This document shows, piece after piece, positions 19,521-24,608 of a DNA stretch of 25,561 nt. How positions within the stretch are numbered: the stretch's first letter is position 1; each line of letters opens with the position of its first letter. The DNA is taken from IMG/VR virus record IMGVR_UViG_3300004770_000104, positions 1 to 25,561 of that record. One strand, given 5' to 3'. The position numbers and the translations under genes were made by a program. The DNA comes from a virus. The notes beneath the pieces are model-generated. The model ran no database searches, was not told the DNA's origin, and was given only the letters and a program-made list of their open reading frames with translations.

Positions 19521-19865
19521 ATGTTCAAAAGAAAATACATTCACCCAGACACTCAGGATGTTTTAACTTTTGGCGAGCAAGTATCTTGGAAAATTCAGGG
19601 CATTATCCGCAACTGGTGGTTTGTAGGCTTTTGGTCTATCGGCAGTTTTGTATGGTGGCTTAAGCCTACTTGGTTCCGCGACAACCACTCATATATTCAT
19701 TGGCAACTATTGGCTTCCTATCTAGCCGTTCTTGTTGAGTTGATGATTGGTATTGCAATGATCGGACAGACCAAGCGCGATGCCATGATTATTCGACACA
19801 TCCTGAAACTTGAGAAACAAGAGATTGAACACTTACAGGATTTACTAGAGGAAAAAAATGACTGA
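19521..19865 (+). CDS. Two-pass membrane protein, holin candidate
   Basis: 114 aa. Two Trp/aromatic-rich membrane segments at about residues 32-48 (WWFVGFWSIGSFVWWL) and 62-82 (QLLASYLAVLVELMIGIAM), then a charged helix (LKLEKQEIEHLQDLLEEKND) forming a cytoplasmic coiled coil. Size and layout fit a holin, but similar proteins in this region have other roles. Coupled to both neighbours. Confidence 0.58.
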   Translation: MFKRKYIHPDTQDVLTFGEQVSWKIQGIIRNWWFVGFWSIGSFVWWLKPTWFRDNHSYIHWQLLASYLAVLVELMIGIAMIGQTKRDAMIIRHILKLEKQEIEHLQDLLEEKND

Positions 19866-20331
19866 TGGTCACGATCAAAAGATTACTAACTCGTATGTGG
19901 TGCATTACCCTGCTCACGAACCACGCGAAACTGACCCGCACTATAAAGACTTTAATGCCTACCGCGAGCGAACCAAAGACACCGCCAAGTGCGCTATCGG
20001 AGAACATCGTTCAGATTTCTCTGAGTGCGATGGCGGATTAGAGCTTCATCATTCTCACATTGAGTTCTCACTCCAAAACGGCGTAAACTTGAAGTGGCTG
20101 GAAGTGGACTATCCGGGCGTGTCTGACCCTGAGTCAGTTGGGGCTTGGGTTGAGTCAGGTGCTAACTTGATTTGGTACTGCGAACGCCATCATAGAGGCG
20201 TTGGGGGCGTACACCACGCTGCCGCTTCCGACTGGGAAGCAGAGAAATTTGTTAAGAACTTGATTTCAAAGCGCGACCCAGATTCTTCACCAGATCAGGA
20301 TGCCATTTCTTCAAATGCTCAGCCTGAGTAG
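19858..20331 (+). CDS. HNH-like protein
   Basis: 157 aa, start overlapping the previous gene by eight bases. It has an HNH/treble-clef pattern: Cys45 in CAIGEH, LELHHSHIEF with His64/65/67, ESGANLIWYCERHHRGVGG with Asn103, Cys108 and His111/112, then VHHAAASDWEAEKF. Members occur in many actinophages near lysis or tail genes, where their role is unknown; nuclease activity is not proven. Its last 80 bases overlap the 3' end of a reverse-strand HNH gene. Confidence 0.65.
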   Translation: MTDGHDQKITNSYVVHYPAHEPRETDPHYKDFNAYRERTKDTAKCAIGEHRSDFSECDGGLELHHSHIEFSLQNGVNLKWLEVDYPGVSDPESVGAWVESGANLIWYCERHHRGVGGVHHAAASDWEAEKFVKNLISKRDPDSSPDQDAISSNAQPE

Positions 20332-20662
20332 CGCACAAAACTAAATTCTCAGGTCGGTTGTCAGTTCGATCACCGTTAAGATGATGAACGCGCTCAACTG
20401 AGGTTAAAGGGCGATTTATCATGTTTTCCATGACAACCCGATGTTCCATTTTTGCCTTACCATCAACCAAAATACGAATATAACCTTTTTCGCTTAATCT
20501 GCGAGATTGATTGCCTTTATTCCATTTGGGCAATTCGTTCAAAGCTGCTACTCGGCAAGTATTGGAGCAGTACCGATTTGGTCGAGTGCGCCAATGACCA
20601 CGCGCTTTGTATTCTGTATTGCAACGCTCACAATGAAACTTAGGTATGGTAGATTTTCTCAT
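20252..20662 (-). CDS. Reverse-strand HNH endonuclease
   Basis: 136 aa on the opposite strand to its neighbours. N-terminal zinc ribbon (C11xxC14 and C32xxxC36), a linker with RILVDGK, and an HNH core: EHRVVMENMINRP (H74), VHHLNGDRTDNRPENLVLC with His93/94, Asn96, Asp98, Asn102 and Asn106, and a helix ending HLKKWHP. This is the layout of small free-standing homing endonucleases (HNH_3 type). The ATG overlaps an inverted repeat (20636-20673), and a TANNNT box places +1 at the ATG. The 3' end overlaps the HNH-like gene convergently by 80 bases, so this looks like an inserted mobile gene. Homing activity is inferred. Confidence 0.75.
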   Translation of the reverse strand: MRKSTIPKFHCERCNTEYKARGHWRTRPNRYCSNTCRVAALNELPKWNKGNQSRRLSEKGYIRILVDGKAKMEHRVVMENMINRPLTSVERVHHLNGDRTDNRPENLVLCATQAEHLKKWHPDLVKNLGRALKSSS

Positions 20663-20677
20663 ACCTAAAGTTTAGCA
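20636..20677 (-). promoter_or_regulatory. Leaderless promoter inside inverted repeat at HNH start
   Basis: On the reverse strand TGC-TAAACT (20677-20669) ends six bases before the ATG, giving +1 on the start codon. The same region forms an inverted repeat: AAACTTTAGGTATG (20673-20660, reverse strand) pairs with CATACCTAAGTTT (20648-20636) with one unpaired base and an 11-base loop. The start codon lies in the stem. Confidence 0.55.
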
Positions 20678-20713
20678 CATAGCCACTTTAGTAAACCAAG
20701 GGAAAGGTAGAAA

Positions 20714-21022
20714 ATGGCAACCAAGAAGTTTAATTATCATTTTACAACCAAGGAAAAGGCTCTTGCCGAACACTATGTGTACGGCATCCTTGCTGCTGGT
20801 CTTGCTACGCATGAACTTGCACCGCACGACACATTCAAGGTTATCGCTATCAAGGCATTGGTCGGCGGCCTAGTCGCACCAGTTCTTGCTCGCATTAACC
20901 CTGCTTCGCTTGTCAATCAAATTGACGAAGCCACAGGCGCTCCTGCAACTCTTACCGCACCAGTTGTTTCTGCCGTAGTAGCAGATGCGACAAAGTTGGT
21001 TCAAGCAGAAGCAACCAAGTAA
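20714..21022 (+). CDS. Membrane protein, probable holin
   Basis: 102 aa with two membrane segments at about residues 20-36 (HYVYGILAAGLATHEL) and 43-60 (VIAIKALVGGLVAPVLARI), then an Ala/Val/Thr-rich tail. SD GGGAAAGG is upstream. It lies just before the endolysin but is separated from it by a terminator. Size and topology fit a class II holin. Cationic N-terminus (MATKKFNYHFTTKEK) is typical of this group. Confidence 0.6.
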   Translation: MATKKFNYHFTTKEKALAEHYVYGILAAGLATHELAPHDTFKVIAIKALVGGLVAPVLARINPASLVNQIDEATGAPATLTAPVVSAVVADATKLVQAEATK

Positions 21023-22690: not shown

Positions 22691-23718
22691 GCCTCGCTGA
22701 CGATCTCAAGAAAATTAAAGAAGAGGCTGACCCGCAGGTCACCGATTTACGCAAAGCCTTACTGAACGCGCAGAAGCAGTTAGCCAAGATCAAAGACCGC
22801 GACCAACAGTTAGGCGAGTTGGTACTTCAAGCAGCTTATGATGCAACGCTCTCTATGGGCGCAATCCCGCCAGTACCTAAGCCAAATCTAACGAAGGCTA
22901 AGGCTAAGGCAGAGGTAGCTCTCGTTCACGCTACTGACTGGCAAGGCTCCAAGATCACCACCACTTACAACTCTGAGGTGATGAAGAAGCGGGTTATGCA
23001 GTTTGCCGAGAAATGCGTGAAGATTACTGAGATTCAGCGCCACGATCACCCCGTTAATGATGTGGTGATTATGTTCGGTGGCGACATGATTGAAGGCCTT
23101 TTTAATTATCCCGCACAACTTTGGGAAGTAGATGCCACGCTATTTGAGCAATGGGACATCGTGTCGTTCCTTATGGTGGACTTCGTTCGCTACTTTCTCG
23201 CTAATTTTGACAAGGTAACAGTTGTCGCCGAGTGGGGAAATCACGGCAGAATTGGTAGCAAGCGAGATCATGTCCCTAAAGCGGATAACTTTGATCGTAT
23301 GTGCTATCAGTTCGCCAGAAAGATTCTCGCTGGGGAAAAGCGCCTGACATGGGAAGATTGCCCAGAGGATATTCAGCGCGTTGAGATTGGCAATTATCGA
23401 GCGCTCTTAATGCACGGAGATGAAGTAGGTAGATCAGGCTTTGCCTCTCCTAGCGCTTGGCAAGCTGCTGGTAACCGTTGGAAAGCAGGAGCCTATAAGT
23501 GGCCGTTCACCGATATTTTTCTAGGGCACTATCACCGTTTTGCTCAAGAACCTCTAAGCGCTCAGGATGGCAACATATTCTGGACTGGTTCAACTGAATC
23601 GGACAACAGGTACGCCCGCGATTCTATGGCGGTTAGCGGAATCCCATCACAACGCTTACATTTTATTGACCCGATCAAAGGTCGGACTACGGCTCAATAT
23701 CAGGTCTTTTTAGATTGA
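22687..23718 (+). CDS. Metallophosphoesterase (calcineurin-like)
   Basis: 343 aa. The start at 22687 is preferred since it overlaps the HTH stop (ATGA); an in-frame ATG fifteen bases upstream is possible. The N-terminal 65 residues form a coiled coil. The metal-binding motifs of the family are visible: HATDWQ (H81, D84), GGDMIEG (D133), AEWGNHGR (N185, H186), LLMHGDE (H243) and LGHYHRF (H281, H283). The family includes Mre11/SbcD-like nucleases and phosphodiesterases. Position after a promoter with an HTH protein suggests DNA processing in the early block; the true substrate is not known. Confidence 0.8.
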   Translation: MSLADDLKKIKEEADPQVTDLRKALLNAQKQLAKIKDRDQQLGELVLQAAYDATLSMGAIPPVPKPNLTKAKAKAEVALVHATDWQGSKITTTYNSEVMKKRVMQFAEKCVKITEIQRHDHPVNDVVIMFGGDMIEGLFNYPAQLWEVDATLFEQWDIVSFLMVDFVRYFLANFDKVTVVAEWGNHGRIGSKRDHVPKADNFDRMCYQFARKILAGEKRLTWEDCPEDIQRVEIGNYRALLMHGDEVGRSGFASPSAWQAAGNRWKAGAYKWPFTDIFLGHYHRFAQEPLSAQDGNIFWTGSTESDNRYARDSMAVSGIPSQRLHFIDPIKGRTTAQYQVFLD

Positions 23719-23760
23719 TGCTATGATAATGCCTTGGCGGTGCGACTAACACCCCAAGGC
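23719..23760 (+). promoter_or_regulatory. Extended -10 promoter and leader hairpin before HNH gene
   Basis: TG-C-TATGAT (23719-23727) is an extended -10 element and predicts +1 near 23734. A hairpin begins there: GCCTTGGCGGTG (23731-23742) pairs with CACCCCAAGGC (23750-23760), 11 bp with one bulged C. No T-run follows, so it is more likely a 5' leader structure than a terminator. Confidence 0.4.
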
Positions 23761-23787
23761 TGGCACAAACTAATAAGGAGTTCGTAC

Positions 23788-24318
23788 ATGGCTAAACCTA
23801 GCAGAATTGCTCATTGCGGCACAAGGTCTGGATACAACAGACATTTAAGATTAAAAAATCAACCATGCGATTTGTGCAAAGAAGCTAATCGCGTATGGGT
23901 TGCTCAATGGACTGCTAAAAACCCTGAGCGTATTAAAGAAATTAACGAGAAGGCTCGTACAAAATATCGCTCTCGCCCTGAAATTCAGAAACAACGCAAA
24001 ATTAAAGGGCGAGAATACTCTTATACGGAAAATGGTCGGGAAGCCAGTATTAGGGCTAAGCATCGGCGTAGGGCGCGCAAAATGAGCGCTCATGCTGAAA
24101 AATATACTACTCAGCAAATACTTGACCTTTATGGCGCTATTTGCCATCTATGCTCTTTACCTATTGACCTTAGCCTTCCTCGCAAATGCGGTATTGAAGG
24201 ATGGGAAATGGGTTTGCAACTTGACCATGTAATTCCCTTGGCTAAAGGTGGAGAGGATAGCCCAGCAAATGTGCGCCCGTCACACGGAATATGTAATAAA
24301 AGAAAAGGCGGCTTCTAA
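23788..24318 (+). CDS. HNH endonuclease
   Basis: 176 aa from the ATG at 23788, which has AAGGAG seven bases upstream; an in-frame GTG start upstream would lie inside the leader hairpin. The N-terminus has a Cys cluster (C10, C27, C30: NQPCDLCKEANRVW) resembling a zinc-ribbon or NUMOD-type DNA-contact element. A basic segment (KHRRRARK) follows. The HNH core is CHLC at 119-122, LQLDHVIPLAKGG (D146, H147), NVRPSHGICNKRKG (N161, H166, C169). It is likely a free-standing phage HNH nuclease, homing or packaging-related. It ends the rightward early unit. Confidence 0.8.
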   Translation: MAKPSRIAHCGTRSGYNRHLRLKNQPCDLCKEANRVWVAQWTAKNPERIKEINEKARTKYRSRPEIQKQRKIKGREYSYTENGREASIRAKHRRRARKMSAHAEKYTTQQILDLYGAICHLCSLPIDLSLPRKCGIEGWEMGLQLDHVIPLAKGGEDSPANVRPSHGICNKRKGGF

Positions 24319-24422: not shown

Positions 24423-24608
24423 TTATAGAGTTTCTTCTTCATCTGGCAAATCGGCTTCAAGGGCAAAGCCAGCTCGCCTTAAGGTTTGTAGTGATTCCTC
24501 AAATAGCTTGCCCACGCGATTGCAGTAATCGGTCACTTGGTCGGGGTAGTGGTCGCTTGCTTGGATTTCAACCTCTAGTTCCTCGTACCTGACCATTACG
24601 CTTATCAT
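24423..24608 (-). CDS. Small reverse-strand protein (61 aa)
   Basis: A separate small gene on the reverse strand between the HNH gene and the next plus-strand block. The sequence (YEELEVEIQASDHYPDQVTDYCNRV, then LQTLRRAGFALEAD) is acidic and helical; no family is recognised. Support for being a real gene: a TANNNT box (TATTCT) places +1 exactly on its ATG, a terminator follows it, and no plus-strand gene overlaps. No SD. An internal ATG at the fifth codon is an alternative start. It may be a regulator or an accessory factor; function is unknown. Confidence 0.6.
   Translation of the reverse strand: MISVMVRYEELEVEIQASDHYPDQVTDYCNRVGKLFEESLQTLRRAGFALEADLPDEEETL

Follow-up and report, generated by a model that had tools for sequence, protein, structure and literature searches.

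A predicted leaderless promoter and a putative start-sealing hairpin at a mobile HNH endonuclease gene of a lake phage

A free-standing HNH homing endonuclease gene in an uncultured lake phage appears to carry its own leaderless promoter, the spacer and start codon of which can pair with codons 5-9 of the same gene. RNA begun further upstream would hold the AUG closed and would not be translated, while RNA from the gene's own promoter would start at the AUG, lack the pairing strand and be translated as a leaderless message. With the AUG open on the latter RNA and closed on the former, expression of the cassette would depend on its own promoter alone, whatever the site of insertion. This explanation, which claims no temporal (early/late) switch and to which we give a probability of about 0.5, joins the sequence, the insertion and the fold and opening energies computed in silico to a predicted promoter activity and start site, a putative translational silencing, and presumed nuclease and homing activities.

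The HNH cassette and its insertion site

The stretch of DNA analyzed here, called the window, is a virus contig of 25.6 kb (25,561 nucleotides) with structural and lysis genes on the plus strand; its main features are collected in Table 1. The HNH_3 gene is antisense to all window genes except the one at 24423-24608. Its 136-aa product scored 32.2 bits against PF13392 (HNH_3), above the curated cutoff of 24.8, and belongs to this family. The N-terminus carries zinc-ribbon-like CxxC motifs, and the best annotated relatives include the hidden HNH genes of the ShiLan type, at 38-41% identity; no solved structure matched the protein by sequence.

Table 1. Coordinates of the HNH cassette, its start region and its neighbors in the window
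Feature	Position	Strand	Remarks
HNH-like left neighbor	19858..20331	+	conserved in dozens of related lake phage contigs (L041-L120)
Diverged tract, 62-75% identity to L005	20163..20253		nearly identical flanks; read as co-conversion accompanying insertion
HNH_3 endonuclease ORF, 136 aa	20252..20662	-	free-standing homing-endonuclease type; PF13392 and PHROG HNH families
Inserted cassette (HNH gene, promoter, hairpin)	20254..20700		absent from empty-site relatives
Inverted repeat predicted to seal the AUG	20636..20673	-	5' arm 20673-20660, loop 20659-20649, 3' arm 20648-20636
ATG start codon, predicted transcription start at A	20660..20662	-	in-frame TAA upstream; opening energies
Predicted extended -10 TGC-TAAACT, leaderless promoter	20669..20677	-	6 nt before ATG; geometry recurs in other HNH genes
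Right-hand neighbor, small gene ahead of the endolysin gene	20714..21022	+	no confident family

The relatives of the left neighbor lie between structural and lysis genes. The 3' end of this gene is cassette sequence in the window, where the inserted cassette supplies the C-terminus of the protein. Three contigs with an empty site (L005, L007, and L010) were obtained from relatives of the right-hand neighbor gene, and in their alignments, which break off at window position 20253 or before it and continue at 20701, both gene and hairpin are absent. Compared with L005, the left flank shows almost no differences until about position 20162, and on the right the identity is 97% from 20701 on; the insertion thus looks recent, and one flank was apparently co-converted. 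The gene is present in the window and in L002-L004 and missing from the three empty-site contigs at the same position, which is the presence/absence pattern of a free-standing homing endonuclease. Because the hairpin and the promoter both lie inside the inserted segment, they are part of the mobile cassette. Only three other contigs contain the HNH_3 gene, all 100% identical at the protein level and likewise over the 630-nt junction region, and because all copies are identical, neither conservation nor covariation of the arms within this gene is informative. Taken from these comparisons, the HNH_3 gene is probably a free-standing HNH homing endonuclease recently inserted between two phage genes, with a presumed nuclease and homing activity. 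Copying into a cleaved empty allele would be in keeping with the diverged tract at 20163-20253, read as co-conversion, which supports it indirectly.

Promoter, start codon and inverted repeat

The minus strand reads, from 5' to 3', TGC (20677-20675), TAAACT (20674-20669), TTAGGT and the ATG (20662-20660). The sequence before this ATG has no usable Shine-Dalgarno element, and no -35 element is evident for the promoter. Actinobacterial leaderless genes are recognized by a TANNNT -10 element about 6-7 nt before the start codon and by the lack of a Shine-Dalgarno element, and TGC-TAAACT-N6-ATG has this arrangement. An in-frame TAA lies inside the -10 element, so that the 136-aa ORF can start no earlier than the ATG at 20662.

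The inverted repeat consists of AAACTTTAGGTATG as the 5' arm, which takes in the last 5 nt of TGC-TAAACT, an 11-nt loop, AGAAAATCTAC, and CATACCTAAGTTT as the 3' arm. The stem has 13 pairs, namely nine perfect ones, a 1-nt bulge, and four more, and the arm AAACTTTAGGTATG holds the only possible AUG of the HNH_3 gene. A search against Rfam returned nothing near a gathering score, and a role as a terminator was ruled out, as the repeat has no T-run. The initial annotation had described a promoter TGC-TAAACT overlapping one arm of a 13/14-base repeat with the AUG in the stem, and direct reading of the sequence proved both its coordinates and its description right.

The minus-strand gene at 24423-24608 is preceded by TATTCT-N6-ATG, with TATCCT and CATAAT at the same place in its relatives, and this spacing makes leaderless starts in the phage lineage of the window plausible. 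The segment 24376-24608 of the minus strand holds a small conserved gene with leaderless-like spacing, followed by a terminator (24396-24376). A minus-strand promoter close to consensus, TTGCCA-N16-TATAAT, is found immediately ahead of this terminator, an arrangement that would yield a very short RNA.

Accessibility of the AUG in silico

For RNAs with 5' ends from -40 to -5, the AUG was fully paired and its opening cost 5.6-5.7 kcal/mol. The cost was still 4.9 kcal/mol with the 5' end at -3 and fell to 0.34 kcal/mol for RNA starting at the AUG; when the upstream 40 nt were shuffled 60 times, the read-through value was not reached once. The claim that the AUG would be hidden on read-through RNA and free on leaderless RNA is therefore borne out in silico (about 5.7 versus 0.3 kcal/mol). 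The proposed switch works on paper, and it would do so only for a truly leaderless transcript, a sharper demand than that of the initial annotation.

The early/late timing that had also been suggested found no support, as the gene is antisense and the nearest upstream minus-strand gene has a terminator. No source of read-through on the minus strand was found in the window, where the transcript of the 24423-24608 gene would meet the terminator at 24396-24376. The lock may instead serve the cassette at other locations.

Leaderless promoters and start-sealing stems in other HNH genes

Start-sealing stems showed no general excess among 154 HNH_3 genes (4 of 154 at P <=0.01, versus 4 of 220 controls), were not enriched among 79 NUMOD4 genes, and were generally absent from HNH relatives at 30-45% identity, those of the ShiLan type included. 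The leaderless geometry is over-represented at HNH starts, with 17 of 813 candidates versus 21 of 3680. Furthermore, six of 14 actinophage HNH genes, a further set chosen by protein similarity, have a predicted leaderless promoter, versus none of 69 annotated neighbors (Fisher 8e-6). Actinomycetota genomes were uninformative as a replication set, since none of the 20 matching ORFs had such a promoter.

Most leaderless HNH genes have no start-sealing stem. A stem score of at least 21 was nevertheless reached by 4 of 18 leaderless HNH genes when the window gene was included and by 3 of 17 without it, versus 8 of 347 controls, with P values (0.0016 and 0.011) that are indicative because the repeat definitions were adjusted during the analysis. 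By a shuffle criterion (P <=0.02), the enrichment was weaker, with equally indicative values of 0.017 and, without the window gene, 0.067. Start-sealing hairpins are modestly enriched among leaderless HNH genes, not across HNH genes overall.

The window gene, L335, L310, and L495 each have a strong repeat that joins the promoter, or the sequence before it, to the start, and L285 has a weaker one; the only outliers in opening energy are the window gene, L495, and a doubtful TTG start of the second HNH gene of the window. Several candidate parallels were rejected. The repeats of L335 and L285 do not raise the opening energy. Neither is it raised, with a 40-nt leader, in L310, where one repeat has the AUG in its loop and a second possible stem includes it. 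L253, with TGC-TATAAT in a 13-bp arm, was dismissed as a second exact parallel, as the structure is different in L327, a relative 69% identical to it. In L310 itself (422-534), three mutually complementary segments surround the start of a gene with a TGC-TATACT promoter, one before the promoter, one over it, and one in codons 4-8, and these could form alternative hairpins.

The second HNH gene of the window (23715-24314; PF01844) is unrelated to the first, and its exact insertion is absent from L005. It is preceded by TGC-TATGAT-N6-TTG and a strong leader hairpin; it was not retained as a parallel, as the TTG start is probably unused, an ATG at 23788 led by a Shine-Dalgarno element is likelier, and the Shine-Dalgarno effect is borderline (P 0.05).

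The survey also bears on gene annotation. In Comrade (L499), Cece (L496), GiJojo (L493), and MulchMansion (L503), the annotated HNH starts lie 99-228 nt from a leaderless promoter-ATG, and the leaderless ATG fits the conserved N-terminus; the annotated starts of these genes are probably wrong.

Related arrangements in Streptomyces phages and beside terminase genes

Outside the window, the clearest example comes from the Streptomyces phages Quaran19, CeilingFan, and Karimac (gp252), whose HNH nuclease gene, like the window gene, has a predicted leaderless start and a repeat predicted to close the AUG only on read-through RNA. The repeat is a perfect one of 14 bp: its 5' arm, TTCTGCTCTCTCAT, occupies -41..-28, and its 3' arm, ATGAGAGAGCAGAA, is made up of the initial 14 nt of the ORF and so starts with the AUG itself. 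The loop contains TATAAT-N7-ATG. In Quaran19, the opening of the AUG costs 6.1 kcal/mol on read-through RNA versus 0.65 on leaderless RNA. Differently from the window, the promoter is in the loop and not in an arm, the gene is co-oriented with the upstream gene, and the arm sequences are unrelated. In Karimac, 9 of the 27 bases in the loop are changed, but none of the 26 arm bases counted and none in the -10 element (Fisher 0.001). Conservation of the 5' arm, with 0 changes in 13 bases between Quaran19 and Karimac, does not exceed that of the flank farther out (2 in 104). The retention of the arms is suggestive of an independent case of the lock logic and is not proof of it.

A pattern scan for the window arms led to a NUMOD4-HNH gene that adjoins a terminase gene (L019/L036) and carries TTAGGT-ATG...CATACCTAA in matching register. 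In L129 (1501), L151 (1351), and L152 (ATG 1501), a NUMOD4-HNH gene is inserted just before the large-terminase gene, and one member of this family, L129, has the 9-nt arms of the window in the same register and a start-sealing hairpin. Its relatives of 93% and 78% identity keep the stem although it has undergone a double change (G-C to A-U) along with three wobble changes, and a mismatch in the stem is repaired among relatives. With three sequences, the covariation counts did not exceed the shuffle control (170/500), and no leaderless promoter is evident at this gene. The retention of the stem is suggestive as a third line for a start lock.

Alternative explanations of the repeat

The leaderless promoter might be real and the repeat an accident of AT-rich sequence around the start, without any part in regulation. 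Unbulged stems of this strength that take in the start codon were found at 3 of 800 window ATGs and in 0.55% of shuffles, and by folding energy 14 of 803 window ATGs are equally stable with the start paired, which puts the single-gene odds of a chance repeat at about 0.4-1.7% per ATG. The 101-nt fold around the start is ordinary as a whole (z -0.27), which also fits a chance origin, as do the missing family-wide enrichment and the many leaderless relatives without such a repeat. However, the repeat falls on the promoter and the start in precisely the frame that the switch would require, and L310, L335, and L495 have strong repeats of their own. The motif TGN-TA[AT]ANT-N5-8-[AG]TG, moreover, occurs once in the window, at the HNH_3 start. 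Although the hairpin by itself is not extraordinary, its combination with the promoter is unlikely to be due to chance, and the coincidence would not stand alone; an accidental repeat is regarded as rather improbable.

A smaller likelihood is assigned to a DNA operator that overlaps the promoter and is recognized by a repressor, whether of the phage or of the host, or else by the HNH product. The -10 element lies partly within the repeat, autorepression of this kind is documented for I-TevI (PMC2988022), and the start region loosely resembles the empty target site when gaps are allowed (P about 0.001). This similarity is gone with the ungapped scoring that a binding site would need, and an operator resembling the homing site was rejected, its significance being limited to loose gap scoring. 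The arms are also offset by the bulge, and the window contains no second exact copy of an arm, although 9-mers with a single mismatch are somewhat commoner than expected (9 versus 3.8). Palindromes of the type TTAGGTATGG-N5-7-CCATACCTAA were encountered in unrelated viral contigs (L018, L022, L025, L026, L027, L031, L034, L038, and L040), up to five copies in each; they usually adjoin a TTGACA-like box on one or both sides and resemble a repeated operator with promoters on both strands. As for a hairpin acting on the plus-strand late mRNA, for example by stabilizing or insulating the 5' side of the gene at 20714, the repeat does fold in the plus-strand RNA as well, some 40 nt ahead of the start of this gene (z -1.3), but empty-site relatives manage without the repeat, and the hairpin, having no T-run, is not a terminator; such a role is highly improbable.

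Relation to known systems

Hairpins that sequester the start region (RBS) on early transcripts have been described for I-TevI, I-TevII, I-TevIII, segB, and mobE, in which the late promoter sits downstream of the inhibitory arm; I-TevI also represses its own late promoter (PMC2988022). The initial annotation's comparison with I-TevI is apt, since these T4-type genes combine a start-hiding hairpin with a promoter past the inhibitory arm (PMC2988022). The T4-type genes (I-TevI/II/III and segB, and mobE of Aeh1) are, like the window gene, homing endonucleases with a stem that hides the start on read-through RNA, which for the window gene was found in silico. In the T4-type genes, the gene's own promoter is placed so that its transcripts lack the inhibitory arm, and the predicted promoter of the window gene, which lies in the arm, would have the same effect. 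In the T4-type genes, it is the Shine-Dalgarno element that is sequestered and a leader remains, whereas the window gene has no such element, the AUG itself would be sealed, and only leaderless RNA would be free. The two differ further in host group, nuclease family, and orientation, and no early/late switch is proposed for the window gene. Its putative lock would be a variation on the known I-TevI/mobE hairpin control, new in that the AUG is sealed instead of the ribosome-binding site.

Among actinophage HNH homing elements, the hidden HNH gene of the ShiLan domain in mycobacteriophages is both similar in kind and among the best annotated relatives of the window protein, and leaderless initiation was proposed for it, without a promoter or hairpin (PMC11855218). 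It has a GTG start and lies out of frame inside a methylase gene (PMC11855218), the ShiLan domain being an in-frame methylase insertion, whereas the window cassette is intergenic and antisense, with a visible promoter; no start-sealing stem was found at the ShiLan start. Like the window gene, segD of T4 is a free-standing homing endonuclease gene antisense to its neighbors, but it encodes a GIY-YIG nuclease and no promoter of its own was found (PMC2988022), in contrast to the HNH gene with its predicted promoter. The open-access literature yielded no account of a leaderless homing gene with a hairpin that seals its start.

Implications

A wider proposal, put forward tentatively and at somewhat less than even odds, is that a portable leaderless promoter is common among the free-standing HNH homing genes of actinophages and that a subset add a read-through lock. 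In such a lock, the first codons would pair with a strand located within the promoter or upstream of it, and the gene would be silent in whatever operon it is inserted and read only from its own start. The hypothesis is transferable to cultivable Streptomyces phages, which would permit direct testing in place of the uncultured lake phage.

If true, the leaderless promoter with its start lock would explain how selfish endonuclease genes are expressed without harming the host phage. It would account for the translation of actinophage HNH genes without ribosome-binding sites, which has so far been left to speculation (PMC11855218), and it would carry the hairpin principle known from T4 over to leaderless genes, predicting a sharp dependence of expression on the exact transcription start.
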